In this document: positions 31,564 to 50,906 of the stretch, piece after piece
Layout of the letters: each line of letters starts with the position of its first letter
Position numbering within the stretch: position 1 is the first letter of the stretch
NCBI RefSeq assembly: GCF_014639275.1
Contig: NZ_BMFW01000008.1
Location: 62,660 to 126,659 of the forward strand
DNA length: 64,000 nt
Reading direction: 5' to 3'
Origin: Arthrobacter liuii
Lineage (GTDB): Bacteria > Actinomycetota > Actinomycetes > Actinomycetales > Micrococcaceae
Translations under genes and position numbers: made by a program
Notes under the pieces: generated by a model
The model's database searches: none
Seen by the model: the letters and a program-made list of their open reading frames with translations, nothing else
What the model was told of the DNA's origin: nothing

Positions 31564-31629
31564 AAGTCCCCGCCGGATGGACGTTTCCCCTGCGCGTGAC
31601 AGGGGGACTGGTCCGTGGGGTGGGGAGTT
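31564..31629. repeat. GC-rich hairpin element, copy 1 (plus orientation)
   Basis: AAGTCCCCGCC ... GGAC ... TCCCCTG, loop CGCGTGA (31593-31599), CAGGGGGA ... GTCC ... GGGGAGTT. The outer, middle and inner arms pair in nested fashion. The same plan is seen at 42620, 43743 and 50843. It lies between the DUF4190 gene and the convergent GntR gene, where it could also terminate both transcripts. Confidence 0.65.
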
Positions 31630-31654
31630 GTCTCGGTCGACTTACCTGGCCGAC

Positions 31655-32353
31655 CTAGCGGAGCAGCTCGACGTCCGAGACAAGCTCGATATGCGCCAGC
31701 ATGGCATTGGCAGCGCCGTCGGAATCGTGGGCGCGGACGGCATCGGCGATTTTCCGGTGCGATGCCAGTGACTGTTCGGGTCGCCCGGGCTGGCCCAGGG
31801 ACTCCATCCTGGTTTCCAGGATCATCTCGGCGATGAAGGCCATCAGTTGCCCCAGTACCGAGGAGTGTGCCGCAGCCGTGATGGCTTGGTGGAACAGTTC
31901 ATCGCCGTGGGTACCGCGGTGGCCGTCGCCGATTTCCTTGGCCATGACATCCAGGGCGTTGTCAATGGCAGTGAGGTCCTGGTCCGTCCGGCGTTCCGCC
32001 GCAAGGGCGGCAAGCTTCACTTCCAGCGTGCTGCGTGCCTCCACGATTTCCGGGAGCCGGCTCTGGTGCTCGCGCAGGCCCTTGACCACCGACGCCACGC
32101 TGGGCCGCCGGGCCAGGACTGCGCCGGTGCCGTGCTGCACGTCGATGACGCCAAGCACTTCCAGGGCCACCAGGGCCTGGGCCAGGGTGGCGCGGGAAAC
32201 TCCAAGCCGTTCGGCAAGGTCGCGCTCTGCCGGCAGGAGATCTCCGGGCTTCAGCTGGGCGGACTCAATGTAGGCAAGGATCTGCTCCACCAGCTGCTCA
32301 TAAAGCCGTGGGCGGGTGACTCGTTCCAGACCTGCCCGTGCTGTCTTCTCCAC
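31655..32353 (-). CDS. GntR/FadR family transcriptional regulator
   Basis: The product has 232 residues. The winged helix (LYEQLVEQILAYIESAQLKPGDLLPAERDLAERLGVSRATLAQALVALEVLG, about residues 17-70) is followed by an FCD-type all-helical ligand domain with the metal/acid-binding histidines (HRGTHGDELFHQAI, HRKIADAV, HIELVSDV). The GTG start has GGGAGG six bases before it. It is divergent from the permease remnant, CoA-transferase and carboxyltransferase genes and probably controls them. MatR- and FadR-like members sense carboxylic acids or acyl-CoAs. Confidence 0.92.
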   Translation of the reverse strand: MEKTARAGLERVTRPRLYEQLVEQILAYIESAQLKPGDLLPAERDLAERLGVSRATLAQALVALEVLGVIDVQHGTGAVLARRPSVASVVKGLREHQSRLPEIVEARSTLEVKLAALAAERRTDQDLTAIDNALDVMAKEIGDGHRGTHGDELFHQAITAAAHSSVLGQLMAFIAEMILETRMESLGQPGRPEQSLASHRKIADAVRAHDSDGAANAMLAHIELVSDVELLR

Positions 32354-32399
32354 AAAGCCCTCCCATGGGTCGCTCGGATCAGAATACCTCCTTCATCTA

Positions 32400-32421
32400 T
32401 TGACAGATAGACTCACTGTCT
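32400..32421 (+). promoter_or_regulatory. promoter -35 with overlapping GntR-type palindrome
   Basis: TTGACA (32400-32405) is a consensus -35. Just after it, AGAC-TCACT-GTCT (32409-32421) is a small inverted repeat, and TAAGAG (32421-32426) a poor -10. The site is between the GntR gene and its divergent target operon, in the spacer where a repressor would block transcription. Confidence 0.45.
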
Positions 32422-32488
32422 AAGAGGCTAGTCCAGTGAGCCAGTAACTCACGTCACGCTTCTCGCACCCCCCAACGGAGGACCAACG

Positions 32489-32738
32489 ATATCCGCTCCT
32501 GTCTTATCGATCATCATCCTGGCGGCGATGTTCCTGCTCGCCACCGTCCTGCCCCTCTATATGGGCGCGCCCGCGTTCGTGGGCGCCTTCTTGCTTGGCG
32601 CCCTGGTGCTGGCCAACGCGCGCGGAGGGCGTGGACAAGGACCAGTTCTACAAGCGGATCCCCGGCTACAGCGGAGTCGTCATCGTGGCAGGACCCGTCC
32701 TGGCCTGGCTGGCACTGGTGGTCCTCGGCTGGCTCTAG
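32489..32738 (+). pseudogene. remnant of an SLC13/MatC-type dicarboxylate permease: dead start and internal deletion
   Basis: A good ribosome site (ACGGAGGA, 32475-32482) is followed not by ATG but by ATA at 32489. Reading on gives SAPVLSIIILAAMF and LPLYMGAPAFVGAFLLGALVL, the N-terminus of MatC-like C4-acid/malonate permeases (about 45 residues). From about 32615 the frame shifts by one, and VDKDQFYKRIPGYSGVVIVAGP...VVLGWL then stop (32736-32738) matches the C-terminus of the same family. The middle, about 350-400 residues, is gone. It is thus a permease gene with a lost start and one large deletion whose junction lies at about 32615-32631. It stands in operon position before the CoA-transferase. 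Confidence 0.75.
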
Positions 32739-32786
32739 CGCCGACCGCGCCCCAGCCCCGCCTGTTCTAGAAAGGAAACCCAGCAT

Positions 32787-33995
32787 ATGAGCACAGCAGA
32801 AACTTCCCAAGGCCCCCTGGCCGGGCATATCGTCGTCGACCTCAGCCGGGCACTGGCCGGGCCGCACGCCGGGATGATGCTGGCAGACCTCGGCGCCCGC
32901 GTCATCAAGGTGGAGAACCCCGGCACGGGGGATGACACCCGCGGCTGGGGCCCGCCCTTCGTGGGCCCCGAGGACGACCTCCAGTCCACCTACTTCATGT
33001 CCTGCAACCGCAACAAGGAATCCATCAGCCTGGACCTGAAGAGCGCTGACGGCCAGGCGGTGCTCCGCGGGCTCCTGGAGCGGGCGGACGTGGTGATCGA
33101 GAACTTCCGGCCCGGAGTCATGGACCGGCTGGGCTTTTCCACCGCCGCGATGCACCAGCTCAACCCGCGCCTGGTCATCCTCTCCATCACCGGCTTTGGC
33201 CACGACGGGCCCGAATCCCAGCGCAGCGGCTACGACCAGATCCTGCAGGGCGAAGCCGGCCTGATGTCCCTGACCGGCTCCGGCCCGGACGATCCCCAGC
33301 GCGTCGGTGTCCCCATCGCCGACCTGCTCTCCGGCATGAACGGCGCATTCGGCGTGCTGGCGGCCCTGGTGGAGCGGAACCGGACCGGCCAGGGCAAGGT
33401 GGTACGCGCCTCGCTGCTGGCATCACTGATCGGCGTCCACGCCTTCCAGGGCACAAGGACCACCGTTGCGGGTGAAGTTCCGCAGGCCCAGGGCAACCAC
33501 CACCCGTCCATCGCCCCCTACGGACTGTTCAACTGCAAGGACGGGAGTGTGCAGATCAGTGTTGGCAGCGAGAAGCTGTGGCAGTCGTTCGCCGCGGCCT
33601 TTGGCCTGGACCCGGCCGCCCCGGGCTTTGCCAGCAACGCCGAAAGGGTGCGGAATCGTGCGGAGGTGATTGCCGCCGTCGAACGCGCCTTTGCCGGCTA
33701 CGGCGCGGCGGAACTGCTGCAAAAACTTAACGACGCCGGGATCCCGGCAGGGAAGGTCCGCTCGCTGGACGAGGTGTACGCCTGGGAACAGGTGGCGTCC
33801 CAGGGGCTCGTGGTGGATGTGGAGCATCCACTGCTCGGAAAGGTAAGCCTGCCCGGGCCGCCGCTGCGGTTCTTCGCTCCCGGGGACGCGGCGGAAACCA
33901 CGGTGACCGAGCACGACGCGCCGCCGCTGCTCAATGAGGACGGTCCGGCGATCCGCGAATGGCTCGGCCTGGCCGCGGCTGCCGGGGAAAAATAG
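32787..33995 (+). CDS. CaiB/BaiF family (class III) CoA-transferase
   Basis: The product has 402 residues. Family signatures are IVVDLSRALAGPHAGMMLADLGARVIKVENP at the N-terminus, NRNKESISLDLKS, and SGYDQILQGEAGLMSLTG with the catalytic Asp (GYD). It moves CoA between carboxylic acids, such as formyl/oxalate, succinyl/itaconate or malonate; the acceptor is not decided. An AGAAAGGAAA site precedes the ATG. The carboxyltransferase gene starts two bases after its stop, so both belong to one operon behind the dead permease, under the divergent GntR regulator. Confidence 0.93.
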   Translation: MSTAETSQGPLAGHIVVDLSRALAGPHAGMMLADLGARVIKVENPGTGDDTRGWGPPFVGPEDDLQSTYFMSCNRNKESISLDLKSADGQAVLRGLLERADVVIENFRPGVMDRLGFSTAAMHQLNPRLVILSITGFGHDGPESQRSGYDQILQGEAGLMSLTGSGPDDPQRVGVPIADLLSGMNGAFGVLAALVERNRTGQGKVVRASLLASLIGVHAFQGTRTTVAGEVPQAQGNHHPSIAPYGLFNCKDGSVQISVGSEKLWQSFAAAFGLDPAAPGFASNAERVRNRAEVIAAVERAFAGYGAAELLQKLNDAGIPAGKVRSLDEVYAWEQVASQGLVVDVEHPLLGKVSLPGPPLRFFAPGDAAETTVTEHDAPPLLNEDGPAIREWLGLAAAAGEK

Positions 33996-33996
33996 C

Positions 33997-35520
33997 ATGG
34001 CGACGGCGGAGAAGGTGCGGCATTTGAAGGCAACCGAATTGCTGGACGCGGTGGTGGACCCGGGTGCGTTCGTCTCGTGGGACACGGAGCCGCAGCAGCC
34101 ACCGCTGTCCGGGGAGTACGCCAGCGACCTGGCCAGGGCGCGCGAACGCAGCGGCGCCGACGAGTCAGTGATCACCGGTGCCGGGCTCATCCGGGGCCGC
34201 CGGGTGGCACTGATCGTCAGCGAGTTCTCCTTCCTGGCCGGGTCGATCGGCCACGCGGCGGCGCAAAGGATTGTTGCCGCCGTCGAACGCGCCACCGCGG
34301 AGGGACTGCCGCTGCTGGCCGGCCCGGCCTCCGGGGGAACGCGCATGCAGGAAGGAACGCTGGCGTTCCTGTCGATGGTGAAAATCACCGGGGCCGTGCG
34401 GGCGCACCGCCAGGCAGGGCTTCCCTACCTGGTCTACCTGCGGCATCCCACCACCGGCGGCGTCATGGCATCCTGGGGGTCTTTGGGCCACATCAACGTG
34501 GCCGAGCCGGGCGCCCTGCTGGGCTTCCTGGGCCCGCGCGTATACGAAGCGCTGTACGGCGAGGCGTTTCCGGAGAACGTGCAGGTGGCGGAGAACCTCT
34601 TCCACAAGGGACTGATAGACGCCGTTGTGGAACCCGAAGACTTGGCGGACCTGGTGGGCCGGGCGCTGGACATCCTGGCTGCAGAGGAGCGCGTTGGTGT
34701 CGGCGCCACCGTGCCGGCCCCGCCTGAAACCCTGGATGTCCGGCCCTCGACTGTTGACGCCTGGACGTCCATCGGGATATCCCGCCGGCCGCGGCGGCCG
34801 GACCTGCGCCTGCTGCTGAAGTTCGGCGCCAGCGACGCCCTGCCCCTCAACGGAACCGGGCAGGGGGAGAAGGACCCGGGGCTGCTGCTGGCACTGGCAC
34901 GCTTTGGCAGCCAGTCCTGCATCGTGCTGGGGCACGCGCGCCCGCTGCGGAAGGACGCCGCGGGCATGGGCCCGGGGTCACTGCGTGAGGCGCGTCGGGG
35001 CATGAAGCTGGCGGAGGAACTGCGGTTGCCCCTGCTCACGGTCATCGACACCGCCGGCGCAGCCCTTTCGCAGGAGGCGGAGGAGGGCGGGCTTGCCGGG
35101 GAGATTGCACGCTCGCTGCACGAACTGATCGGGCTCGAATCGCCGTCGGTCTCTGTGTTGCTTGGCCAGGGTGCCGGCGGAGGGGCCCTGGCGCTGCTGC
35201 CCGCGGACAGGACCATCGCCGCCCAGCACAGCTGGCTGTCGCCGCTGCCCCCGGAAGGCGCCAGTGCCATCGTGCACCGGACCACCGCCTTTGCCCCCGC
35301 CATGGCGCAGGCGCAGGGGGTAAACGTCGCCGCGCTGTACGCGAACGGCCTGGTGGACCACGTCGTGGATGAGCGCGATGACGCCTCACTGGAGCCGCGC
35401 GAATTCTGCACCCGGATGGCGCGGGCCATCGAGTACGAACTGGGCTCCGTGGCCGGCCGTCCGGTGCCTGAGCTCGTGGCTGCCCGGGCCCATAAGTTCG
35501 CGACCCTGGGCGCCCCTTAG
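33997..35520 (+). CDS. carboxyltransferase (fused AccD/AccA-like beta and alpha halves)
   Basis: The product has 507 residues with two crotonase-fold halves. The first (about 1-260) resembles AccD: GPASGGTRMQEGTLAFLSMVKITGA and HPTTGGVMASWGSLGHINVAEPGALLGFLGPRVYE. The second (about 265-500) resembles AccA: GMGPGSLREARRGMKLAEEL, TVIDTAGAALSQEAEEGG and LGQGAGGGALALLPAD. No cysteine zinc finger precedes the first half, unlike E. coli AccD. Neither biotin carboxylase nor biotin carrier is encoded nearby. It may serve an acyl-CoA carboxylase with partners elsewhere, or, next to a CoA-transferase and a malonate-type permease, work in decarboxylation in the manner of MdcDE. The start is two bases after the CoA-transferase stop. 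Confidence 0.88.
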   Translation: MATAEKVRHLKATELLDAVVDPGAFVSWDTEPQQPPLSGEYASDLARARERSGADESVITGAGLIRGRRVALIVSEFSFLAGSIGHAAAQRIVAAVERATAEGLPLLAGPASGGTRMQEGTLAFLSMVKITGAVRAHRQAGLPYLVYLRHPTTGGVMASWGSLGHINVAEPGALLGFLGPRVYEALYGEAFPENVQVAENLFHKGLIDAVVEPEDLADLVGRALDILAAEERVGVGATVPAPPETLDVRPSTVDAWTSIGISRRPRRPDLRLLLKFGASDALPLNGTGQGEKDPGLLLALARFGSQSCIVLGHARPLRKDAAGMGPGSLREARRGMKLAEELRLPLLTVIDTAGAALSQEAEEGGLAGEIARSLHELIGLESPSVSVLLGQGAGGGALALLPADRTIAAQHSWLSPLPPEGASAIVHRTTAFAPAMAQAQGVNVAALYANGLVDHVVDERDDASLEPREFCTRMARAIEYELGSVAGRPVPELVAARAHKFATLGAP

Positions 35521-35541
35521 GGGAACAGGCGCCCCTGGCAG

Positions 35542-35997
35542 CTACCTCCGCTGCCGGACCCTGGACCGGTGGGCGTTCCTGCGCAGCTGCAGGATGCGCG
35601 CGCCGCCTGCTGCGGCCACCAGCACGCCACCGCTGACGGCGGCGATGAACAGCGCCATGCCCAGCGGGACCGAACCCTCGAAGCCAAGGAACTTCACCAG
35701 GGCCAGCTCCTGGTTCTGCAGGATGAAGATGATCAGCAGGATCAGCAGCACCAGGGCGGCCACCACTGCTGCCCAGATGACACCGGTGCGCGTGACTTTG
35801 CGTTCAGGGGTCCCGTCGGCCGTGCGCGCGGGGCCGGTCCCGGCGGCCGGTGTGCCCGGCTGGCCCGTTGAGTAGGACGGGGCGTTGCTGTACGTCACGT
35901 TCCGGTCTGCTGACGGCTGGTCCGCGTTCGACGGCGGCGGGCCGGCTTCCGTCTCCGGCCGTCGGTCCGGTCCTGGCGTGTACTGTCCTGCGCTCAT
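35542..35997 (-). CDS. LapA domain (DUF1049) membrane protein
   Basis: The product has 151 residues. A 65-residue polar, Pro/Thr-rich N-terminal tail precedes two membrane helices (VIWAAVVAALVLLILLIIFILQNQ at about 73-96 and LGMALFIAAVSGGVLVAAAGGARI). The LapA signature FILQNQELALVKFLGFEGSVPLG joins them. The C-terminus is a basic cluster (RRNAHRSRVRQRR) on the cytoplasmic side. In Gram-negatives LapA helps lipopolysaccharide assembly; in actinobacteria the role is unknown. It converges on the carboxyltransferase gene with 21 bases between. Confidence 0.85.
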   Translation of the reverse strand: MSAGQYTPGPDRRPETEAGPPPSNADQPSADRNVTYSNAPSYSTGQPGTPAAGTGPARTADGTPERKVTRTGVIWAAVVAALVLLILLIIFILQNQELALVKFLGFEGSVPLGMALFIAAVSGGVLVAAAGGARILQLRRNAHRSRVRQRR

Positions 35998-36138
35998 GCT
36001 TTGTCCCCTTTCCCAGAATGCTAAGCATGCTTACCGTTCAACCATAGACGCCGGTGTTGCCGCAGCACAACGACCGGCGCGACGGGATGCTGGTTCTGGG
36101 ACTGTCAGGGGCAGCCTGCAGGAGGCGGTGACCGTGGG

Positions 36139-36196
36139 GGAGGGGTCCTCACTGAGAACCCCTCCTGACTTAGGTCCGGGTTGTTTGCCCGGACCT
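36139..36196. terminator. tandem hairpins at the end of the small gene at 36196
   Basis: GGAGGGGT (36139-36146) pairs with ACCCCTCC (36158-36165), and AGGTCCGGG (36172-36180) pairs with CCCGGACCT (36188-36196) around TTGTTTG. The second stem ends on the first base of the TGA stop (36196-36198) of the minus-strand small gene. The pair probably ends that transcript. Confidence 0.6.
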
Positions 36197-36399
36197 CAGA
36201 CCCTCTCCTTGCTCCGTTCGGCAGATGGGGTGCGCGGCGCAGGCGTCCTGCGCCAGCTGGGGAAGGCCCAGAACGTGAAATTCTGTGCCTTTACCGGCTC
36301 CTCCGGAGTTTCCGCAGGGGTTTCCGGTTCCGCTTCAGGCCGGCGCTTGGTTTCCTTCCTTGCGCCCCACCCAAAGTCCTTGTTCGATGCGTAGCACAT
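36196..36399 (-). CDS. small conserved-looking hypothetical protein
   Basis: The product has 67 residues and a strong ribosome site (TAAGGAGGT) five bases before the ATG at 36399; a GTG immediately upstream is too close. The N-terminus MCYASNKDFGWGARKE looks structured, with one Cys and aromatic residues, and resembles short actinobacterial proteins starting MCYAS. The rest is a Pro/Glu-rich linker and a Trp-rich patch (NFTFWAFPSWRR). No membrane helix or known domain is visible, and the function is unknown. A hairpin overlaps its stop codon. Confidence 0.65.
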   Translation of the reverse strand: MCYASNKDFGWGARKETKRRPEAEPETPAETPEEPVKAQNFTFWAFPSWRRTPAPRTPSAERSKERV

Positions 36400-36536
36400 C
36401 ACGGACCTCCTTATGGTGACTGCCCTTTAATCGTCCTCCTGCCCGGCGCGGGAGTCGAGTAGGGCAAAGGGCAAATGTCCTTGAGGCACGGGCGCAGTCC
36501 CGCCGGCGGCCTTCGAAGGCAGGCCGCTCGGATGTG

Positions 36537-36764
36537 CTAGCTGCCGCCGGCCACTACGTCCTCCGCCTCCTGCGGGCGGTGGAACTCGCAGGGCCCCTGA
36601 TGGCGGAGGGGGAGGAGGCAGGTCCGGCCCGTGGGCAGGTGGACCAGCGCGCAGCGGCCGGCCATGGCCAGGTCCTCCCTGACGTTGGAGTTGCTCAGGT
36701 CCGGCCGTCCGTCGTCTGCTGTGTCGGTGGTTCCGGCGCTCACGGCATGATGTTCAGCATTCAT
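36537..36764 (-). CDS. small hypothetical protein with Cys/His motif
   Basis: The product has 75 residues. After a Thr/Asp-rich start it carries C-(9)-C-LPLRHQGPC-F-H, three cysteines and nearby histidines that could hold a metal ion. A GAGGAGT site precedes the ATG at 36764. I know of comparable short actinobacterial proteins with a C-x-LP-x-RHxGPC pattern but not of a function. It stands alone between the amidase gene and the small gene at 36196, all on the minus strand. Confidence 0.55.
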   Translation of the reverse strand: MNAEHHAVSAGTTDTADDGRPDLSNSNVREDLAMAGRCALVHLPTGRTCLLPLRHQGPCEFHRPQEAEDVVAGGS

Positions 36765-36897
36765 TGTGGGGCAACTCCTCGTCGGGCGGAGGGCGGGTGG
36801 AAGGTGCTGAAGCGTGCCGTTCCAGTCTGCGCTGCGGGGGTTACGGGCGGGTTAAGCCGGCGTTAGGGTCACGTCAACAACAGCACCCAAGGTTTCC

Positions 36898-38304
36898 CTA
36901 GTAGCCCAGTTGGTGCGCCACCTGCAGGAGGAGGGCTTCCGATCCCATCGGACCCACCAGTTGGATTCCCATGGGAAGTCCGGTGCCGGTAGCGCCGCCG
37001 GTCCAGTGCACGGGGATGGTTATGGCCGGCAGCCCGCAAACATTCACCATGGAGGACCACGGGGCGTATTCGCACTGCTTCCGGTAGTCGCCGTCGGCAT
37101 CCCCTGGCCATTGCGCCGACGGCCAGCGGTCACCGCCGTGCGCAGTGCCGGTGAACCAGCCGACCGGCCGCGGCGTCTGTGCCAATGCGGGCATCAGCAT
37201 CAGGTCCCACTGCCCGTACTGAGTCACGGTGTCGTGCTGGAACTGGCGCAGGAACGCCAAGGCCTCGGCAAGCTTGGCAGGGCTCCGCTGCTGGGCGCGC
37301 CGCCGGAAGGTCCGGGTCAGGGGTGCCAGCAGTGCCTCCCGCCTGGGATTGATCCGGGCCGCGCCCACTCCCGCGGTCCAGGCGGTGGTGAAGGCGTCCG
37401 GGTAGCGGTTGTCGTAGCGGATGGCCGCGTCGCTGGTGGCATGGGCAGCCCCCTCCAGCAGCTTTTCGCCGATCCGGAGCGCGTCCAGTGCCTCCTGGTC
37501 CGGCGTGAAGGGGAACGTGCTGGACCACGGACTGTCCAGCGTGACGCCGATCCGCAGCCGCGGCGGCTCCTTCCTTACTGCCGCCAGGTAGCCGCCTCCC
37601 GGCACCAGGACGTCCATCATCAGCGCGGCGTCCTCCGCGCTCCGGGCAAGGGGGCCGGGCGCCACCAGCCGCGCAGGGTCCCCGGCGCTTTCCCCTGCCG
37701 CCACCAGCCCGCGGCCCGGCTTCAGCCCCACCAGGCCGCACGCGGCGGCTGGTATTCGGACTGATCCGCCGCCGTCGGTGCCCGGGGCAAACGGCAGCAG
37801 CCCTGCCGCCACGGCGGCCGCGCTGCCGCCGGAGGAACCTCCCGAACTCCTGCTGGGTGCATGGGGATTGCGCGACGGCGGTGCGATGCGGTTTTCGCTG
37901 TAGGCCGTCAGTCCGAATTCGGGCACCTGGGTCTTGCCCAGCGGGACGACGCCGGCGTCCTTGAAGAGGGAAACCAGCGGAGCGTCCGCCGGGGCAGGTT
38001 TGTGGGCCAGGGCCGCACTTCCGTGCGTGGTCACCACACCGGCTACGTCGGTGAGGTCCTTGAAGGCGAGTGGCATGCCGTGCAGCAAGGGCAGGTCATC
38101 GGCGTCGGCGCGGGACCGCAGGGCATCGGCGGCCCGTGCCTGCTCCATTGCCTGGTCCGCCGTCACCGTGACGAAGGCGCCGAGAAGGGGGTTCTGGTGC
38201 TCGATCCGGGCGAGGAAATGGGCGGTGGCATCAGTGGCGGACACTGTTCCACTCCGCAGGAGGTCCCGCAGGGCCAGCGCTGGGAGTTCGTGGAGTTCAG
38301 CCAC
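36898..38304 (-). CDS. amidase (amidase signature family)
   Basis: The product has 468 residues. The Ser-cisSer-Lys triad is visible: Lys82 in PLAFKDLTD, Ser157 in the signature SSGGSSGGSAAAVAAG, and Ser181 in TDGGGSVRIPA. The C-terminus is family-like (VNVCGLPAITIPVHWTGG). Such enzymes hydrolyse amides, from indoleacetamide to short aliphatic or aryl amides, and the sequence also resembles GatA, but there is no gatB or gatC nearby, so a catabolic role is more likely. It is cytoplasmic and monocistronic. The substrate is unknown. Confidence 0.92.
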   Translation of the reverse strand: MAELHELPALALRDLLRSGTVSATDATAHFLARIEHQNPLLGAFVTVTADQAMEQARAADALRSRADADDLPLLHGMPLAFKDLTDVAGVVTTHGSAALAHKPAPADAPLVSLFKDAGVVPLGKTQVPEFGLTAYSENRIAPPSRNPHAPSRSSGGSSGGSAAAVAAGLLPFAPGTDGGGSVRIPAAACGLVGLKPGRGLVAAGESAGDPARLVAPGPLARSAEDAALMMDVLVPGGGYLAAVRKEPPRLRIGVTLDSPWSSTFPFTPDQEALDALRIGEKLLEGAAHATSDAAIRYDNRYPDAFTTAWTAGVGAARINPRREALLAPLTRTFRRRAQQRSPAKLAEALAFLRQFQHDTVTQYGQWDLMLMPALAQTPRPVGWFTGTAHGGDRWPSAQWPGDADGDYRKQCEYAPWSSMVNVCGLPAITIPVHWTGGATGTGLPMGIQLVGPMGSEALLLQVAHQLGY

Positions 38305-38505
38305 GGTGGCGGGCCTCCGTCTGCGGGCCGGCGTTCCGGCGGGGACATGCCGGCGGCGCGGAAGGGGCGGTCAGCGGCTGGGACATGGAACCTCCTGGGG
38401 CTTTCTCCAGCCTAACCCGCAGGGTTTTTCCTGACCCGGTCAAGGTGGAAGGGGGAGGAAGGGCTAGGCTTAAACCTGACTCTGATCCGCCAAGACAGGA
38501 CTCCG

Positions 38506-38832
38506 ATGAGTGATTTCCATACCGTCCCCGTCCATGACATCCCCGCTGACGCCGTGATCCTGGACGTTCGGGAGGACTATGAGTGGGTCGCCGGACACGC
38601 TGACAGCGCCGTCCACATCCCCATGGACCAGATCCCGGCCCGGCTGGACGAAATCGACCCGGACGAGGACGTCTATGTCATTTGCCGCACGGGCGGCCGG
38701 TCCCTCCGCGTTGCCCAGTGGCTCACCGGCCAGGGGTACACCGCCATAAACGTCTCCGGCGGAATGGACCAGTGGCTGGAATCCGGCAAACCCTTGGTCT
38801 CTGACAACGGACTCAAACCGCTGGTGCTTTAG
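38506..38832 (+). CDS. rhodanese-like domain protein
   Basis: The product has 108 residues, a single rhodanese domain. The active-site loop is VICRTGGRS with Cys60; VREDYEWVAGHADSAVHIPM is the CH2A/B motif. The loop length of six residues points to a sulfurtransferase rather than a Cdc25-like phosphatase. Its stop overlaps the GTG of the prephenate dehydratase gene by one base, so the two are coupled, although no metabolic link is known. Confidence 0.92.
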   Translation: MSDFHTVPVHDIPADAVILDVREDYEWVAGHADSAVHIPMDQIPARLDEIDPDEDVYVICRTGGRSLRVAQWLTGQGYTAINVSGGMDQWLESGKPLVSDNGLKPLVL

Positions 38833-39812: not shown

Positions 39813-39906
39813 GCAAATGCCCTCCGAAGTACTTCCGCGGGATGTGGACAATGCGTATGCTTGCCTGATCCACACGGGGTATGGCCCCTGATGAAGGGAG
39901 CGGGTC

Positions 39907-40110: not shown

Positions 40111-40145
40111 CCAAAGCTACTGTCCTATTTGATCACCGCGCTGCG

Positions 40146-42609: not shown

Positions 42610-42619
42610 GCACCATTAC

Positions 42620-42684
42620 AACTCCCCGCCCCGTGGACTTTTCCTCCCGTCACGCACGGGGGTCTTGTCCACAGGGCGGGGTTT
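42620..42684. repeat. GC-rich hairpin element, copy 2 (minus orientation)
   Basis: CCCCGCCC (42624-42631) / GGGCGGGG (42674-42681), GTGGAC (42633-42638) / GTCCAC (42667-42672) and CCCGT / ACGGG around loop CACGC. Its reverse complement matches copies 1 and 4, including GCGTGA. It follows serS and contains the last codons and stop of the AbiEi/DUF559-like gene at 42650. Confidence 0.7.
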
Positions 42685-43672
42685 TCTGCGGCCGGATGCC
42701 TGCCGCGATGAGCCTTTGTCGCAGGACGTCGGGCGTGGACAAGGTCTTCCAGTCCCATCGGACCACTTTGTAGCCAAGGGCCCTTAACCGGTCTTCGCGT
42801 TTCTTCTCGGCCAGGATGGCTTCCTGGGTGCTTACTCCGGCGAGTAAAACCTCGTCGAGGTACTTTGCGTCGCCGTCGAACTCGCCGATCACTTTGGCCT
42901 CGGGCCAAAAGAAGTCGGTCCGCGCGATAAAGCCTTCCCGGTCATGGAACACGTGCTGAAGGACTGGTGCGGGCAAGCCCAGGACATGGATGAACGCCCG
43001 GCTGCGGGATTCCCCGACGGACTCTGACGCCTCATCGGCCAAAGCGAGCACTTCCTGGATGTGGCGGCGCTTGGCGGCCGAGGCAAGGCCGGCTGCTGCG
43101 TCGAGCAGCTGTTGGCGCGTCAGCGCTTCACCGGGACCGCGCCGTGGGCCAAGTACGGCATCCGCGATGGCTACGGCATCCGGAATTTCGAGCCGGACCA
43201 TGCAGTCCATGACCGTCTGCGGCAGCGTAGTCACAGCGAACCCTTGGTACTGCACGGAATGGACGAGCCAGAAATGGCGGCTAAGCCCGTAGCTCCGGAC
43301 GTGCTCTATTCCGGTCTTCCCGGTCTTGGCATCGCGTGCGGCGGCGGTGGTCGGTGATGCTTTGCCCGCTTTGTGCCGAGAGCTCGTGATGACGTGGATG
43401 TGGGTGGGCACCCCCGGACACGGAAGGTTCCAAATCCGCAAGGCCGTCAGATAACAGAAGGTCATGGACGGATCGACGGCGGCCACTGCTGCCATGGTGG
43501 TCCGGTACCGCTGCCACGGTTTGAGGGAAAGCCATGCCGCCTTGCCAAAATAGACGCCGGCCCGGACTCTGACCAGGGTCCCGTTCCTGTAGCCCCGGCT
43601 CAGCGAGCGGCTGCTCCCGGTCAGGGCCCGGCGACGGCTTGCCAGGACCAGGACCGCTTCATCGGATTTCAT
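42650..43672 (-). CDS. AbiEi-like / DUF559 (PD-(D/E)XK nuclease-like) protein
   Basis: The product has about 340 residues. The N-terminal half (RRRALTGSSRSLSRGYRNGTLVRVRAGVYF, then YLTALRIWNLP) resembles the winged-helix and middle regions of AbiEi type IV antitoxins. The C-terminal 100 residues look like the Vsr/DUF559 nuclease fold: TDFFW, GEFDGDAKY, EKKREDRLRALGYKVVRWDW, giving D, ExD and K. No AbiEii toxin is nearby. The start is unsure: ATGs at 43672, 43696 and 43753 all lack a good ribosome site. The C-terminal PPCGQDPRA and stop lie inside hairpin copy 2, and another hairpin lies 70 bases upstream of the start, so it may be a mobile cassette. The function is unknown. Confidence 0.75.
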   Translation of the reverse strand: MKSDEAVLVLASRRRALTGSSRSLSRGYRNGTLVRVRAGVYFGKAAWLSLKPWQRYRTTMAAVAAVDPSMTFCYLTALRIWNLPCPGVPTHIHVITSSRHKAGKASPTTAAARDAKTGKTGIEHVRSYGLSRHFWLVHSVQYQGFAVTTLPQTVMDCMVRLEIPDAVAIADAVLGPRRGPGEALTRQQLLDAAAGLASAAKRRHIQEVLALADEASESVGESRSRAFIHVLGLPAPVLQHVFHDREGFIARTDFFWPEAKVIGEFDGDAKYLDEVLLAGVSTQEAILAEKKREDRLRALGYKVVRWDWKTLSTPDVLRQRLIAAGIRPQKTPPCGQDPRA

Positions 43673-43742
43673 GACTCCATGCTCGATGGAACGCATGCCC
43701 ACAGGGCGGGTCAGGACGGCCCATGTGGAAAACAGTCCGGGA

Positions 43743-43806
43743 ATTCCCCGCACAACGGACTACTCCCCAGATAACGCGGCGGGGACTTGTCCGCGGCAGG
43801 GGGACT
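43743..43806. repeat. GC-rich hairpin element, copy 3 (plus orientation)
   Basis: TCCCC (43745-43749) / GGGGA (43800-43804), CGGAC (43756-43760) / GTCCG (43789-...93, that is 43789-43793), CTCCCC (43763-43768) / GGGGA (43781-43785). The loop has AGATAACGCGG in place of GCGTGA. It lies between the divergent AbiEi/DUF559-like and HAD genes, opposite in orientation to copy 2. Confidence 0.6.
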
Positions 43807-43910
43807 GCTGCGCGCCGCACTGCCCCAGCATGTGGGAACCCGCAGTTAACCAACAGTTCAATAAACCTGTGGCCCGCGTCCTAGCGCGTGTCAGTTGCGT
43901 CTGCTTCACT

Positions 43911-44804
43911 ATGTGGATGACAACGCTGACTGAAACTTCAGTCGCCGGCAACGATGACCGGCGAGACAACAATCGAGACAACAACCAGGACAACGTCGGC
44001 TTCGCCGGCATCGACCAGAAGTTCATGGTCGCCCTGGACGTGGACGGCACCCTTGTGAACCATGACGGCCACATGTCCCCGGGCGTGCGGCAGGCCGCGC
44101 AGGCCGTGGTGGCCGCCGGGCACGAGGTAATGATCGCCACCGGCCGCTCCCTGAACGCCACCCTTCCCATCATCGAAAAGATCGGGATCGAACGCGGGTA
44201 CGCCGTCTGCTGCAACGGCGGCGTGACCCTCCGGCTCCACCCGGAACTGGAAAATGGCTTCGAAGTGATCCACAAGGCCACGTTTGACCCCGCACCGGCC
44301 CTGCGCGCCCTTCGGGAACGGCTCCCCTCCGCCAAGTACGCATTGGAGGACGCAGACGGTAATTTCCTCTCCACCGAGCGGTTCCAGGATGCCAGCTTCG
44401 GGGTGGAAGCGGTGGGCGTGGACTTCCACACCATGCTGGAGGCCACCGCCGTCCGCGTGGTGGTGTTCAGCACCGAAAACACGCCTGAGGAGTTCACCGA
44501 GGCCATCAACCACGTGGGCCTCGCCGGAGTGACCTACTCTGTGGGCTGGACTGCGTGGCTGGACATCGCCGCCGCAGGGGTCACCAAGGCCAGCGCCCTG
44601 GAAAGCCTCCGGCTCCGGCTCGGTTTCGAAGAGCACCTAACGGTGGCAGTGGGCGACGGCCGGAACGACATCGAAATGCTCACCTGGGCCGGCCGCGGCG
44701 TCGCAATGGGGCAGGCCCCGGCGGAAGTGGTCGCCGCCGCGGACGAGGTCACCCACTCCGTGCATGACGACGGCGCCGCCCACGTCCTGCGCAGCCTCCT
44801 CTAG
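43911..44804 (+). CDS. HAD family hydrolase (Cof-type)
   Basis: The product has about 297 residues. HAD motif I is VALDVDGTLVNHDG, motif II is in MIATGRSL, and the motif III/IV region AVGDGRNDIEMLTWAGRGVAMGQAP is classic for Cof/type IIB phosphatases, with Lys in GVTKASALESL. It removes phosphate from sugar or nucleotide phosphates; the substrate is unknown. The first 35 residues are Asn/Asp/Arg-rich. ATG 43911 or 43917 may be used, neither with a good ribosome site. The histidine phosphatase gene follows 63 bases later. Confidence 0.92.
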   Translation: MWMTTLTETSVAGNDDRRDNNRDNNQDNVGFAGIDQKFMVALDVDGTLVNHDGHMSPGVRQAAQAVVAAGHEVMIATGRSLNATLPIIEKIGIERGYAVCCNGGVTLRLHPELENGFEVIHKATFDPAPALRALRERLPSAKYALEDADGNFLSTERFQDASFGVEAVGVDFHTMLEATAVRVVVFSTENTPEEFTEAINHVGLAGVTYSVGWTAWLDIAAAGVTKASALESLRLRLGFEEHLTVAVGDGRNDIEMLTWAGRGVAMGQAPAEVVAAADEVTHSVHDDGAAHVLRSLL

Positions 44805-44867
44805 GTGGGAGGTGCTTTCGTTCGCCCCGATTCCAGTCAGCGCTCGCGGCCGAGGCAGAATAGAGGC

Positions 44868-45452
44868 ATGACCCTTACGACGTTCGCCCTCGTCCGCCAT
44901 GGCCAGACCGACTGGAACGCCGAGCGCCGGTTGCAGGGATCAACCGACATTCCCCTGAACGACGTCGGACGCGGCCAGGCGCGTGACGCCGTCGCCATCC
45001 TTGCCCCTTACGGATGGGACGCCATCGTCTCCTCGCCGCTGAGCCGCGCAGCCGAAACCGCGGACCTGATCGCCGAAGGACTCGGGCTGAAAGTGTCCCG
45101 CCGCGTCCCCGAGCTCACCGAACGCAGCTTCGGCCCGGCAGAAGGGATGCAGGCAGGCCCCGAGTTGGACGCGCTGCGTGTCCCGGGCGGATTCAAGGGC
45201 GCCGAAAGCGAAGGCGAGGCCGCCGACCGAGGCCTTGCTGCGCTTGAAGACCTTGCGGACGAGTTCCGCGGCCAGCGGCTCCTGGTGGTCACCCACGGGA
45301 CCCTCCTGCGCGTCAGCCTCAGCCGCGCCGTCGGCCAGGCCCTCACCAGCGTGGACAACGCCGCACTCAACCTGGCCCACCACCACGCAATCGACGGCTG
45401 GAAGCTGGAGTACTTCAACGGCGAGCCCGTAATGGTGGCCACCGGCAGTTAG
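44868..45452 (+). CDS. histidine phosphatase family protein
   Basis: The product has 194 residues. The N-terminal catalytic motif is LVRHGQTDWNAERRLQG with the phospho-accepting His, and the second His is in VVTHGTLLRVSL. SSPLSRAAETADLIAEGL is also characteristic. It is the phosphoglycerate-mutase-like phosphatase family (CobC/GpmB types). A role as a general phosphatase is likely; the substrate is unknown. It is the second gene after the HAD hydrolase, and converges on the HTH gene at 45471. Confidence 0.93.
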   Translation: MTLTTFALVRHGQTDWNAERRLQGSTDIPLNDVGRGQARDAVAILAPYGWDAIVSSPLSRAAETADLIAEGLGLKVSRRVPELTERSFGPAEGMQAGPELDALRVPGGFKGAESEGEAADRGLAALEDLADEFRGQRLLVVTHGTLLRVSLSRAVGQALTSVDNAALNLAHHHAIDGWKLEYFNGEPVMVATGS

Positions 45453-45470
45453 GGACCGGCGGCCATACGC

Positions 45471-46070
45471 CTACACGGCCGCGAGGATCAGCGCCAGCAA
45501 CCGCGCGGCAGCAGGACGGGCAGCATGTTCCTCGTTCCACTGCGCCCGTGCCACAGCTTTGCTGACGGCCTGGGTGGTGATGCCCAGTTCCTGCGCCACC
45601 GCCTTCTGCTGGCCCCGGACCCCGGGCGTCAACAGGTCCAAAACCCGCCATTCCGCGCCTGAGCGGTCCCGGACGATGTGGCCCAGCAGCCGGAGGATGG
45701 CCTCGGCGTCGTGGGCAACATCGGCCAGCGGCCCCTCCACGGCAACCGGGACCCGCTCCTTGCTGTTTCTGAGCCGATCCACCGCCCTGCGGGCATAGAC
45801 CAGGCTGTGGCCGGACGCGTCCTTGATCTGGTTGGGCAGCGGCTCGTTCACCGGCCCGGCGCCGATCCCCACGTACCAGTGCCCACTCCGCAGCGCGATC
45901 AATGCGGCTTCCACCGCCTGGTGCGGGCAATCGACAATCCCTTGGACCTCATCCTCCACGGACCGGTCAAAATCCAGGCGCGCGGGAATGTGCCGCAGCG
46001 CCTTGAGCAGCTGTGGGACCTGGTCGCCGTCGCGCCGGCTGTCCGTCTGGTTGATTGTCAACGTGAACAT
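45471..46070 (-). CDS. SatD-like / helix-turn-helix hypothetical protein
   Basis: The product has 199 residues. The N-terminal part ([35 protein letters not shown]) resembles the mono-domain found in SatD-family proteins. The C-terminal 60 residues carry a helix-turn-helix ([22 protein letters not shown]). A DNA-binding role is therefore likely. No partner is certain, but the phosphoketolase gene starts 180 bases away divergently, so it may regulate it. The family assignment is tentative. Confidence 0.65.
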
Positions 46071-46250
46071 TCTGGGTACACACTACCCGGAAGCAGGAGC
46101 TGCGGAACGGCCAATGTTGCGAGTGCCCAAGACCCCAACTGGCGCTCCGCAACGGCGGCGGTACGACGACGGGGGTTGCCTGCCTGCCCCTCCATCTGTT
46201 GCGATGGGGGAACGGCCGCCTGCAGCGGCACACCCGACGTGAGGATGGTT

Positions 46251-48677
46251 ATGGCCGGCAGCACTGGGCAGGACGAGATGCAGCAGGACGGGACGCAGCA
46301 GGACGACATGGGGCAGGAAGAACTTAAGCTCGTCGACCGGTGGTGGAGGGCCGCCAATTACCTCTCGGTGGGACAGATCTACCTGCGGTCCAACCCGCTG
46401 CTGCGTGAACCGCTCCAGGCAGAGGACACCAAGTCCCGCCTGCTGGGCCACTGGGGCACCACCCCCGGCCTCAACTTCGTTTATGCCCACCTGAACCGCG
46501 TGATCCGCCGGGACTCACTTGAAATGCTCTTTGTTGCCGGGCCCGGCCATGGCGGTCCCGCCGTCGTCGCCAATGCCTGGCTGGAGGGAACGTACTCCGA
46601 AATCTATGCCCATGTGGGAAATGACGAGGCCGGCCTTGCCGAGTTGTTCCGGCAGTTCTCCTATCCCGGCGGCATCCCCAGCCACGCCGCGCCGGAAAGC
46701 CCGGGCTCCATCAGCGAAGGCGGTGAACTCGGCTACTCCCTGGCCCACGCCTACGGATCGGTGTTCGACAACCCCCAGCTGGTGACCGCCGTCGTCATCG
46801 GAGACGGCGAGGCCGAAACCGGGCCGCTTGCCGCCAGCTGGCACTCGCACAACTTCCTGGACCCGGCAGTGGACGGCGCGGTCCTGCCAATCCTGCACCT
46901 GAACGGCTACAAGATCGCCAACCCCACCGTCCTGGCCCGCATGCCGCAGGACCAGCTGGAGCAGCTGCTGCGCGGCTACGGCCACGAGCCCTACTTCGTC
47001 ACCGTGGCGGACCCGGACAACACCGAAAAGGCGCACCGCGACTTCGCCGCCGTCCTGGACCGCTGCCTGGCCGATATCAAAGCCATACAGGACGCCCACC
47101 GGCAGGATGCGGCCGGTGAACAGGAGGGGGAGGGCGGGCGCCGCTGGCCCCTGATCGTGCTGCGCTCGCCGAAGGGCTGGACCGGGCCCCGGACCGTGGA
47201 CGGGCTGCAGGTGGAAGGCACCTGGCGGGCCCACCAGGTGCCGCTGTCCGAGGTCCGCACCAATGGCGAGCACCTGAAGCAGCTGGAGGAGTGGCTGCAG
47301 TCCTACCGCCCGGACGAACTGTTCGACGGCGACGGCCGGCTCCGGCCCGACGTTGCCATAGGTGCCCCCACGGGTGATTTCCGCATGAGCGCCACGCCGC
47401 ATGCCAACGGCGGACTGCTGAGGCGCTCGCTGAAATTGCCCGCGTACCAGGACCACGCCGTCGAGGTCCCCGCCCCGGGCACCGACCGGGTGAGCCCCAT
47501 GGTCACGCTCGGCTCCTGGATGCGGGACGTCATTGCGCAGAACATGGAGAACTTCCGGCTGTTCGGCCCGGACGAGACAGCCTCCAACCGGCTGCAGAAC
47601 GTCTACGAGGCTACCGACAAGGTGTGGCAGTACCGGATTGACGACGTCGACGAGCACCTTGCGCGCTCCGGCCGCGTCCTGGAGGTGCTCAGTGAGCACC
47701 TGTGCCAGGGCTGGCTGGAGGGCTACCTCCTCACCGGCCGGCACGGGGTCTTCAACTGCTACGAGGCCTTCGTCCACATTGTCGACTCCATGTTCAACCA
47801 GCACGCCAAATGGCTGAAGGTGAGCCGCAGCTTGCACTGGCGCCAGCCGGTGGCATCGCTGAACTACCTGCTGTCATCGCACGTGTGGCAGCAGGACCAC
47901 AACGGCTTCTCGCACCAGGACCCGGGCTTCATCGACCATGCAGTGAACAAGAAGGCAGAGGTCATCCGTGTGTACCTGCCGCCGGACGCCAACACCCTGC
48001 TGTCCGTCATGGAGCACTGCCTGGCCTCCACGGACTACGTGAACATCGTGGTCAGCGGCAAGCAGCCCTCGCCCACCTGGCTGGGTCCTGCCGACGCCGC
48101 CAACCATTGCCGCCGGGGCCTGGGCATCTGGACGTTTGCCGGCACGGAGGTGCCCGGCGAGGAGCCCGACGTCGTCCTGGCCTGCGCCGGCGACGTCCCC
48201 ACTGTGGAGACGGTGGCAGCCGCGGAATTGCTCCGCGACGGCGCGCCCGGACTCAAGGTCCGCGTAGTCAACGTGGTGGACCTGATGCGGCTGCAGGACG
48301 ACAGCGAGCACCCGCACGGACTTCCGGCGCATGACTTCGATGGCATCTTCACCGCGGACAAGCCGGTCATTTTCGCCTACCACGGCTACCCCGCCCTGAT
48401 CCACCGGCTGGCGTACCGGCGCACCAACCAGCAGGGGCTGCACGTGCACGGCTATAAGGAAGAGGGGACCACCACCACCCCGTTCGACATGGCCATGCTA
48501 AACGGCATCGACCGCTTCAGCCTGGCCATCGACGCGATCGACCGCGTGCCCGGCCTGGCTGAGAAACACTCGCTCCTGCGCCAGGACCTCCAGGACCGGC
48601 GGATCCGCGCGCGCGAGCACACCCGCACGCACGGCGAGGACCCGGAGGAGATCCGCAAGTGGAAGCTGGGCGGCTGA
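46251..48677 (+). CDS. xfp: xylulose-5-phosphate/fructose-6-phosphate phosphoketolase
   Basis: The product has 808 residues, in the usual size range. The thiamine-diphosphate motifs are visible: [21 protein letters not shown] near the N-terminus and [17 protein letters not shown]. The C-terminal transketolase-like part carries [19 protein letters not shown] and [11 protein letters not shown]. It splits xylulose-5-P or fructose-6-P with phosphate into acetyl-P and glyceraldehyde-3-P or erythrose-4-P. ATG 46251 has GTGAGG six bases before it. There is no acetate kinase or phosphotransacetylase next to it. The stop is one base from the convergent DUF429 gene. Confidence 0.96.
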
Positions 48678-48678
48678 C

Positions 48679-49449
48679 TTACTGCAGGGGGAGTTCGTCC
48701 AGCCGGCACGAAGGCAGGTGGATCCAGCCTTCAGTGCACGCAGCCTTGGCATGGGCCTCATCAGGCAGGAGCGTACGACGACGGGCGGCGGCCCGGGCGG
48801 TCAACGAGGCGATGACCGCGTCGAACAGGTCGTCCGAAGCAGCGAGCCGGTCCCGGTGCCCGGCCAGGTCCAGCCACGGCGCCTGCTCTTCGAGGGCTGC
48901 CAGCAGTAGGCCGAGGCGTTCGGCTTCGGGGATGCCGCGGCCTTTGTAGCCGCGCCCGTTGAGGCCCCAGATCTTCAGCGATGCCGCCGGGTACACCTCG
49001 GCAAGCCGGCCTGAGCCGTCGCGTGGCTGCGGGCGGTGCAGCGCGGCGATTTTCGCCTGGATCACCGCGCAGCGCATGGCCGGGTGCGCCAGCCGGTCGG
49101 CGGAAACACTCAGCGGGATCAGCCCGGTCTCGCGCGTGACGAAGCGGTCGGTGTCCCGGTATGCCAGCAGCCTCCGGCCGGCGATCCCGTCGTGCTCCAG
49201 GACAGGGGCCGTCATGTTGTTCAGGTGGCCGGTGAGGAACGGGATCAGCGCGTCGGGCCAGCCCACGGGACAGTCGACGCCGGTCATTTCGCAGGTGCCG
49301 AACAGGTCCACGATCTCCTGGTCGTCCACGTCCAGGGCCAGGTGGGCGAGCCGCGCGGAGCAGCGGCCTGTGGTCCCACGATCCCATTCGATGACGGCCA
49401 CGGCGGTCTTTTTGGTTGCCGCCGCAAGGTCTACGCCGAGGGTTTTCAC
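48679..49449 (-). CDS. DUF429 (predicted RNase H-like) protein
   Basis: The product has 256 residues from a GTG start at 49449. It begins VKTLGVDLAAATKKTAVAVIEW, the DUF429 opening with the first Asp of an RNase-H-like fold, and later has GVDCPVGWPDALI, RDTDRFV, EVYPAASLKIWG and SDDLFDAVIASLTARAAARR. The function is unknown for the family. The frame runs 45 codons further into the end of the carboxylesterase gene, but only GTG 49449, seven bases after that gene's stop, gives the family start; both genes likely form one unit. Confidence 0.85.
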   Translation of the reverse strand: MKTLGVDLAAATKKTAVAVIEWDRGTTGRCSARLAHLALDVDDQEIVDLFGTCEMTGVDCPVGWPDALIPFLTGHLNNMTAPVLEHDGIAGRRLLAYRDTDRFVTRETGLIPLSVSADRLAHPAMRCAVIQAKIAALHRPQPRDGSGRLAEVYPAASLKIWGLNGRGYKGRGIPEAERLGLLLAALEEQAPWLDLAGHRDRLAASDDLFDAVIASLTARAAARRRTLLPDEAHAKAACTEGWIHLPSCRLDELPLQ

Positions 49450-49456
49450 GCCGCGT

Positions 49457-50800
49457 TCAAACGGCCCGGTACCGGAGGACCCCGGGGATGCCGCCGGACT
49501 TCCCGAGGTCCGCGCCCCGTGCGAAGCCGGCCCACAGCGCCCGCGTCGCGCGGCCTGCCGCCTCCACATCCTCCCAGCGGGCACCGGCGATCAGTCCCAC
49601 CCCGTCCCACGTCTGCCGGCTGCCGAGCAGCAGGGGCAGGTCTACTGTGTGGGCGGCGCCGAAGATGTTGTTGGGAGCGTGCCAGTCCAGGACATAGCGG
49701 TATGCGTGTCCACCGGCCTTGGCGTGCCGGCGGGCGAAGCGGCGGGTTGCCCGGCCGTACACGGTCTCAGTGACCACCCAGTCGATGGCGCGCACGGCGG
49801 CGGTGCCCACCAGCGGCAGACCAGCCAGGCGCATCAGGCGCGGACTGCGGGGGAGGAACAGCCGCGCCTCCTCGGAAGTGTGGCCGATCAGCACGTCAAT
49901 TGCTGGTGCCGACCGCTCCCAGGCCGTTTCGATGCCGGATTCTTCCGGGAGCGGATCGTGGCCGTACTGGGTTCCGAACGGCATGGCGGCAAGCATGCCG
50001 AACTTTTTGGCTACCTGGGCCACGTGTTCCTCACGTGCCACCACGTCCATGGCCGGGGTCTCCTCCGTCACGGCGTCGGCGGCGATTCCCATGGCATGGT
50101 TCATCTTCGCCCTTCCGCGGGCGATGCCCAGCGGCGCGCTCTGGATGATGGCGCGCCGAAAGAGCTGCGGTGCTTCCGGTGTTGCCATCAGGTGCGCAAT
50201 CGCGTCGCCGCCTGCGGACTGGCCGAACGCCGTGACCTGGCCTGGGTCGCCCCCGAATGCCGCAATGTTCCGCTGCACCCACCGGAAGGCCTCGAGCTGG
50301 TCAAGGAGGCCCAGGTTGCCGGGGCGGCCTGCCGGTGTTGCCAGGAAGCCAAACAATCCAAGCCGGTAGGTTACGGAAACCACGATGACCAGGTTTTCGG
50401 TCACCAGCCTGGCCGGGTCGAAGATCGCCAGGTCACCCGAGCCCGTGGTGTAGGAGCCGCCGTGGATCCAGACCATCACGGGCAGCCGCTCTTCCCGCGT
50501 GACGTCGCCGGGCATGGTGATGGACAGGTTCTGGCAGTCTTCGCTGCCGGGCAGTTCGCCGTACCGGGTGCCCAGGACGTCATCAAGGAACGGAACGGGC
50601 CCCTGCGGGCAGGCAGGAGCGGGAGATGTGGCGGAAAGCTCGGTGGTCCAGTCCGGGGCCGGCGCAGGAGGCTGGAAGCGGGCCGCCGTGGCGTAGGGGA
50701 TTCCGGTGGCACGGATGACGTCGCCGTCCCGCCAGCCGATAACCGGGCCGCAAGGGGGGTGGAACAAGAGCTGGGAAGTCAGGGCTGGCTCGGAATACAC
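49457..50800 (-). CDS. type B carboxylesterase / lipase
   Basis: The product has about 447 residues. The oxyanion hole is in VWIHGGSY, the nucleophile in FGQSAGGDAIAHL (carboxylesterase type B signature), and the N-terminal half has EDCQNLSI. The third residue of the triad, His, probably lies near HTVDLPLLLG. There is no signal peptide, so it acts in the cytoplasm. It hydrolyses esters of unknown acid. GTG 50800 with GGTGGGG before it is preferred; another GTG at 50824 is possible. A hairpin element lies just upstream at 50843. Confidence 0.9.
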   Translation of the reverse strand: MYSEPALTSQLLFHPPCGPVIGWRDGDVIRATGIPYATAARFQPPAPAPDWTTELSATSPAPACPQGPVPFLDDVLGTRYGELPGSEDCQNLSITMPGDVTREERLPVMVWIHGGSYTTGSGDLAIFDPARLVTENLVIVVSVTYRLGLFGFLATPAGRPGNLGLLDQLEAFRWVQRNIAAFGGDPGQVTAFGQSAGGDAIAHLMATPEAPQLFRRAIIQSAPLGIARGRAKMNHAMGIAADAVTEETPAMDVVAREEHVAQVAKKFGMLAAMPFGTQYGHDPLPEESGIETAWERSAPAIDVLIGHTSEEARLFLPRSPRLMRLAGLPLVGTAAVRAIDWVVTETVYGRATRRFARRHAKAGGHAYRYVLDWHAPNNIFGAAHTVDLPLLLGSRQTWDGVGLIAGARWEDVEAAGRATRALWAGFARGADLGKSGGIPGVLRYRAV

Positions 50801-50842
50801 AGCCCCACCATGCCACAGATTCACGGAGGTCGGACAACGGAA

Positions 50843-50906
50843 AATCCCCGCCTACCGGACAACTCCCCCTTGCGTGAGGCGGGGATTTGTCCGGCAGACG
50901 GGGATT
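50843..50906. repeat. GC-rich hairpin element, copy 4 (plus orientation)
   Basis: ATCCCCG (50844-50850) / CGGGGAT (50899-50905), CCGGACAA (50855-50862) / TTGTCCGG (50887-50894), TCCCC (50864-50868) / GGGGA (50881-50885), loop with TGCGTGA. It is the most regular of the four copies. It lies between the carboxylesterase start and the pyrophosphatase stop, both on the minus strand, so it may end the pyrophosphatase transcript. Confidence 0.75.

Follow-up and report, generated by a model that had tools for sequence, protein, structure and literature searches.

Palindromes around a predicted AbiEi-Vsr-like nuclease gene in Arthrobacter: a possible REP/RAYT-like system built on an unrelated enzyme

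The nuclease gene and its palindromes in the window

The window, a 64,000-nucleotide stretch of the Arthrobacter liuii genome (contig NZ_BMFW01000008.1; G+C about 67%), carries four hairpins, E1 to E4, and a predicted nuclease gene that is bracketed by E2 and E3 and has serS and a HAD hydrolase gene as neighbours (Table 1). The nuclease gene is thus situated between two palindromes of about 60 bp. Across the genus, nuclease lineages differ in palindrome sequence, palindrome and nuclease varying together, and solo palindromes elsewhere are commoner in genomes that hold the matching nuclease lineage. An earlier note on this DNA had described the hairpins as a family of shared architecture, present in both orientations at dispersed sites and with pairing kept by changes on both sides. 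The four hairpins are indeed there and in both orientations, as 60-nt units slightly tighter than first drawn; the nuclease gene between E2 and E3 and the recurring pairing of palindrome with nuclease had been overlooked.

Table 1. Palindromes and nuclease gene in the window.
Feature	Position	Strand	Setting
Palindrome E1, type A1, solo	31567..31626	+	convergent gap; 29 nt from end of minus-strand GntR-type gene
Palindrome E2, type A1, downstream nuclease flank	42623..42682	-	14 nt from serS end
AbiEi-Vsr-like nuclease open reading frame (predicted)	42650..43753	-	367-aa open frame; likely start ATG 43672, 340 aa
Palindrome E3, type A1, upstream nuclease flank	43745..43804	-	about 72 nt 5' of likely start codon
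Palindrome E4, type A1, solo	50845..50904	+	about 40 nt past stop of ppa (inorganic pyrophosphatase)

E1 to E4 can be aligned without gaps, each as a 60-nt palindrome whose strand is set by its GCGT loop, and their blocks stand in fixed register: CCCC, GGAC, CCCC, a GCGTNA loop, GGGG (GAGG in one copy), GTCC and GGGG. The ends of this palindrome, type A1, are AAATCCCC and its genus consensus is AAATCCCCGCCTCCCGGAC-NTTTCCCC-loop-GGGGATTNGTCCGGGAGGCGGGGATTT, while the sequences flanking the four copies are mutually dissimilar. E2 runs into the last codons of the nuclease reading frame, and E3 occupies the gap from which the nuclease gene and the HAD hydrolase gene diverge. That no named family has this plan holds for RNA families, a scan of the window against Rfam at gathering scores having given no match.

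Compensatory change is weakly visible in the four copies alone, where 16 of 500 shuffles reached the covariation score, and strong in 32 genus copies, in which there were 32 double-change cells against 12.3 in shuffles and the score was reached by 0 of 500; this shuffle control retains orthology, many of the copies being mutual orthologues. Alignment A3 leaves out L006, L026, L030 and L042, which were weak or gapped. The genus survey covered 150 genomes, and its counts by type include nuclease-flanking copies. The A1 motif pattern, with up to two mismatches, occurs in 37 of these genomes (reversed control pattern, 3 of 150), and a covariance model built from the 32 copies matched at least 72 at E 0.001, a lower bound since 34 candidates were scored per genome. 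In the A. liuii genome itself the family is small and has, besides E1 to E4, at least one further strong copy (C18:64796) and at least two weak ones (C15:9193 and C5:226316), again lower bounds from 150 scored candidates of 2343. Among named genomes, an exact match to the palindrome was found in Arthrobacter sp. 135MFCol5.1.

The window's nuclease protein has no Pfam match of its own, no NCBIfam family covers it, and a profile search against solved structures returned no significant match. PADLOC AbiEi models match it with E 2.3e-7, and AbiEi_4 (PF13338) is matched (E 0.01) by 32 of the 53 proteins of alignment A4, the window's protein not among them. That alignment holds the window's protein and those of 52 of 70 nuclease loci; in-frame stops or broken frames excluded L077, L096, L102, L103, L104, L108, L111, L121, L122, L123, L125 and L126, and L078, L085, L099, L100 and L110 were also left out. 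At L077 and L096 an in-frame stop lies within the nuclease match, yet the flanking palindrome is still recognised. Residues invariant in the nuclease alignment include GES-SR, an Asp, GE.DG, a Lys and a Glu.

An AlphaFold2 model of the protein (predicted local distance difference test, pLDDT, 90; predicted template modelling score, pTM, 0.84) led Foldseek to Rv2827c (1zel; E 7e-5, template modelling (TM) score about 0.34-0.39). In structure comparison the N-terminal part, residues 3-213, resembles AbiEi 6y8q (Z 8.9, root-mean-square deviation 5.5 over 172 residues), and residues ~216-328 resemble the catalytic domain of I-Bth0305I (3r3p, Z 11.2 over 94 residues), 3hrl (Z 10.5) and Vsr (1cw0, Z 10.2); two mitoribosome chains also reach Z 9.2-9.5, and nucleotidyltransferase-like folds reach Z 7-8 over residues 52-203. 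The gene product is therefore predicted, from its modelled fold, to be an AbiEi-type DNA-binding domain fused to a Vsr/I-Bth0305I-like nuclease domain, and as such it would presumably be catalytic and cut DNA. At the serS site, the only one examined in this respect, the DUF1814 nucleotidyltransferase toxin is not adjacent, the neighbours being serS and the HAD hydrolase gene.

Pairing of palindrome and nuclease lineage

Close homologues of the window's nuclease (62-100% identity, 13 genomes) have A1 palindromes on both sides in 13/13 cases, at a spacing of 1117-1122 bp, and this nuclease type occupies a single place in each of the 13 genomes. Among 17 homologues of 44-52% identity the A1-type model matched both flanks in 12, one in 3 and neither in 2, one of the last two having masked bases at that place; at 40 further loci it matched in 3, including L103, another locus with the nuclease gene type. 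At the serS-HAD site most of the homologues of 44-52% identity carry a related yet distinct palindrome (GCACCC...GGAC..TGCACC, or CACCC...GGACAATTCACC), and those of 34-39% identity have the opposite gene orientation and a third palindrome type, TTGTTCGCGGATC...GATCCGCGAACAA. Of 12 paralogues at other places, 7 have one or both flanks of a fourth type, CGACGCGCANATTCCCTGGCGC with variants, and in 8 the similarity of the left and right flanks exceeds the control level. Control flanks rose above a comparable similarity level of 32 in 0/27 cases for serS and 0/22 for HAD.

Orientation of the nuclease gene at the serS-HAD site is reversed between type A (L073-L104) and type B (among L105-L142). 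At the serS-HAD loci L076, L077, L078, L085, L111 and L116 another palindrome, some 40 nt long (GGTAAACACCCACAG...CTGTGGGTGTTTACC with variants), recurs in or close to the gap separating the nuclease gene from the HAD gene.

Whether palindrome and nuclease go together was measured by comparing the left flank of one locus with the right flank of another and removing the serS distance. Over 56 loci palindrome similarity tracks the nuclease better than it tracks serS (partial r -0.47 with nuclease distance), and it does so within types as well (-0.63 for 32 type A loci, -0.68 for 24 type B loci); 0 of 999 permutations were as extreme as the observed values. The window's nuclease is 62-69% identical to alleles from species whose HAD is 83-87% identical, and 44-48% identical to alleles from species whose HAD is 96-97% identical. 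Nuclease identity is thus out of step with that of the neighbouring gene, and judging by these sequence identities nuclease alleles seem to have been exchanged at the serS-HAD site.

A search of 296 genomes drawn from across the phylum with a profile of the nuclease protein gave matches in 22, of which 20 lie outside the genus. Flanks were compared for 29 of the 48 matches listed, two of them from one genus genome (G002). Left and right flanks were more alike than the 99th percentile of cross-pairings at 21 of the 29 loci, and at 19 of the 27 outside the genus, when wider flanks set from full gene length were used, a choice made after a narrower one; with flanks in the wrong orientation the wider choice gave 17/29. 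Clean palindromic flanks include those of L199, L203, L205, L209, L211, L217 and L226. At L210 and L224 the flanks are arrays of shorter repeats with no single palindrome.

Dispersed copies are found in G290, a genome from a distant family, whose nuclease-flanking palindrome, with ends ATCTTCGC, is present in 17 near-identical copies in 3.4 Mb (reversed control, 0). The copies have common edges, one pair of positions co-varies as T-A, A-T and G-C with one exception, and sequence outside the edges is alike in 3 of 561 comparisons, counted as those above the highest shuffled score. By rough gene calls, seven copies lie in tandem, five in convergent and five in divergent gaps. So many closely matching copies that end at the same edges, yet have mostly unrelated surroundings, require some spreading process. 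A plasmid collection searched with a type C protein and a phage collection searched with the window's protein yielded no homologue within the limits set, and carriage by vehicles of these kinds is therefore not shown.

Solo palindromes in the genus

Of the 150 genomes in the genus survey, 73 carry B-type palindromes, with as many as 14 in a single genome, 59 carry the C type and 23 the A2 type; the reversed control patterns matched in 1, 0 and 3 genomes, respectively. Covariation in the B type is strong, with 80 cells changed on both sides where shuffles gave 43.7. A serS-site type was assigned in 57 of the 150 genomes, to which the comparison by own type is limited; the type table is without G033, from whose locus serS is absent, and G103 is among the untyped. 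The A1 palindrome is present in 13/13 genomes of its own type against 15/44 others, the A2 palindrome in 16/19 against 4/38 (11/19 against 4/38 when only solo copies are counted), and the B palindrome in 23/25 against 18/32. The off-type A2 count takes in the matches in G039, G092, G025 and G122, some of which may be chance. For A1, G135 stands in the comparison with one copy where the survey gave 2, which leaves the number of positive genomes as it is. Alignment A5 was made without L154.

Two pairs of palindromes in these genomes stand 1123 bp apart, one of C type (G123:C4:3519326 and 3520449) and one of A2 type (G103:C2:27060 and 28183). They probably bracket additional nuclease genes.

The best-scoring solo A1 copies sit at gene ends. 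The 37 best-scoring solo loci, placed by rough gene calls, comprise 23 in convergent, 14 in tandem and 0 in divergent gaps, and all are 3' of at least one gene. Among 29 other genomes of the genus that were read, 8 have an A1 palindrome at the position of E4, 3' of ppa. Inspection by eye of the ppa 3' gap in 30 genomes gave nine with an A1 palindrome, 20 with other hairpins and one (G070) with none that is long. The hairpins that fill this gap in other species (L234-L263) belong to a CGCGGGGTCACTTC...GAAGTGACCCCGCG family or to one with AGTTTTTGTCCA...TGGACAAAAACT, or are simple GACGGCGGGTGCC hairpins.

Explanations weighed

We consider the hairpins to be the palindromic half of a two-part palindrome-nuclease system that resembles REP/RAYT systems (repetitive extragenic palindromes and their associated tyrosine transposases) and is built on an unrelated enzyme; we put the probability of this reading at a little over one half, roughly 0.53. 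Binding, cutting and movement in such a system are what we infer, as follows. The AbiEi-like domain would recognise the palindrome of its own lineage in double-stranded form, as an inverted repeat, which is the simplest link to make since AbiEi antitoxins bind inverted repeats according to PMC7319586, and the upstream copy would serve as the operator of the nuclease gene. The nuclease domain would nick or cut at palindromes, and repair or copying might then carry palindromes to new sites; by the same repair or copying, whole palindrome-nuclease-palindrome cassettes could be swapped between strains. Copies landing just past stop codons would be retained as (bidirectional) terminators, which would account for their long persistence at few sites.

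The comparison with known systems runs both ways. RAYT genes, as described in PMC2817692 and PMC3116915, are flanked by two REPs, are single copy and have orthologues that hold position while the REPs change yet stay palindromic. On that description the present system is alike in having its partner gene between two palindromes, as one copy per genome at a kept site, and in having lineage-specific palindromes between other genes as well, with pairing kept by double changes; most copies are likewise extragenic, apart from the overlap of E2 with the end of the nuclease frame. The partner itself differs, being AbiEi-Vsr-like and not a Y1 tyrosine transposase. The A1 and G290 alignments and alignment A5 lack the GT(A/G)G head that precedes REP palindromes according to PMC2817692, and under strict patterns there are 1-17 copies per type and genome where more than 100 REPs per genome are usual. 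The N-terminal part is like AbiEi and Rv2827c antitoxins of type IV AbiE systems by profile and fold; unlike AbiE, a Vsr-like domain is attached, the neighbours are serS and the HAD hydrolase gene, and palindromes stand on both sides of the gene and elsewhere in the genome. The predicted fold of residues ~216-328 is like that of Vsr and I-Bth0305I endonucleases; what sets the present protein apart from them is its AbiEi-type fold and its association with palindromes. In titles and the opening parts of abstracts, with subscription papers and preprints mostly outside the search, we found no work linking such proteins to palindromes.

Several results weigh against such a palindrome-nuclease system. 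Left and right flanks of one locus were more alike than the 99th percentile of cross-type pairs in just 35 of 56 serS-site loci (16 of 32 of type A, 19 of 24 of type B), and the locus in the window is not one of them; relatedness is only partly corrected for in these tests. Matching flanks are missing in 4 of the 12 paralogues and in 8 of the 29 phylum loci; for the latter the narrower flanks chosen at the outset gave 15/29, outer control pieces passed in 2/29, and matched flanks are not clean palindromes at L198, L210, L224 and L225. The A1 (15/44) and B (18/32) palindromes also persist in genomes whose allele is a different one. The 39 high-scoring A1 loci in Arthrobacter represent only 7 distinct sites, one common to 21 loci and the ppa site to 11, so that A1 in this genus spreads rarely, if at all, now; 'dispersed', the word of the earlier note, is to be taken in a weaker sense here, the best solo copies being confined to few, shared sites. 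The ppa gap showed no precise empty insertion site or clean junction in the 30 genomes. Finally, on the transcribed strand G-U combinations outnumber A-C ones (41 v 24, p 0.046; 16 v 7, p 0.09), pointing to some RNA-level role, and together with the position of the 37 solo loci at gene ends this makes a terminator role likely there.

These results bear differently on the alternatives. Regulation without mobility would have an AbiEi-like repressor bind palindromes both next to the gene that encodes it and elsewhere, as a small regulon or in organising the chromosome, with copies inherited vertically or spread by ordinary means. Binding of AbiEi antitoxins to inverted repeats in their own promoters, as reported in PMC7319586, the place of E3 just 5' of the nuclease start and the few, shared sites of the best A1 solo loci all agree with it. 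It leaves the nuclease domain unexplained, however; none of the 37 solo loci in Arthrobacter lies between divergent genes, where promoters would be expected, and the G290 copies call for a process of spreading. We regard it as the strongest of the alternatives and still as rather unlikely. That the palindromes are merely lineage-typical bidirectional terminators or messenger RNA 3' hairpins, their presence around the nuclease gene a by-product, agrees with the location of all 37 solo loci 3' of a gene (by rough calls and at few sites), with the G-U excess and with the other hairpins that fill the same place after ppa in other species. Terminators have no need of a sequence match across both sides of one gene, though, nor of a primary sequence that is conserved and goes with the nuclease lineage, and E3 and the five divergent G290 copies (by rough calls) are ill placed for such a role; we think this explanation improbable.

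Ordinary REP/RAYT elements or miniature inverted-repeat transposable elements (MITEs), moved by a known transposase so far unnoticed, would share the flanked gene, the solo palindromes and the kept pairing that make up REP-RAYT architecture in PMC2817692 and PMC3116915. Of the marks of a MITE, an inverted repeat is present, and no clean empty site was seen at ppa. The flanked gene codes instead for an AbiEi-Vsr-like protein, and a REP-associated transposase, which the earlier note had proposed looking for, did not emerge: none of 25 genus genomes and one of 39 relatives had a Y1_Tnp (PF01797) match, other insertion-sequence transposases and insertion-sequence ends not having been searched for. 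A RAYT partner in the genus was rejected on this search, and we give the explanation very little credence. Chance GC-rich hairpins, which a G+C of about 67% might favour and which the note would have accepted had no hits beyond background appeared, are refuted by the reversed-pattern controls for A1, B, C and A2 and by covariation in A1, B and G290, and we consider their probability negligible.

Scattered palindromes in bacteria are usually credited to RAYT transposases, or go unexplained in lineages without them. A palindrome-nuclease system would add an unrelated protein with the same signs of partnership, whose matched protein-palindrome pairs can be swapped and tested. It is a possibility, to which we give somewhat less than even odds, that these are phylum-wide selfish or semi-domesticated units in which an AbiEi-type reader with a Vsr-type nuclease recognises and spreads its own palindromes; the REP/RAYT way of living would then have arisen twice, independently. 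The results supply a hypothesis of function for a recurrent actinobacterial protein, with AbiEi fold and Vsr-like domain, that is only partly named in the family libraries used, and they offer ready specificity pairs for assays of binding and cutting.

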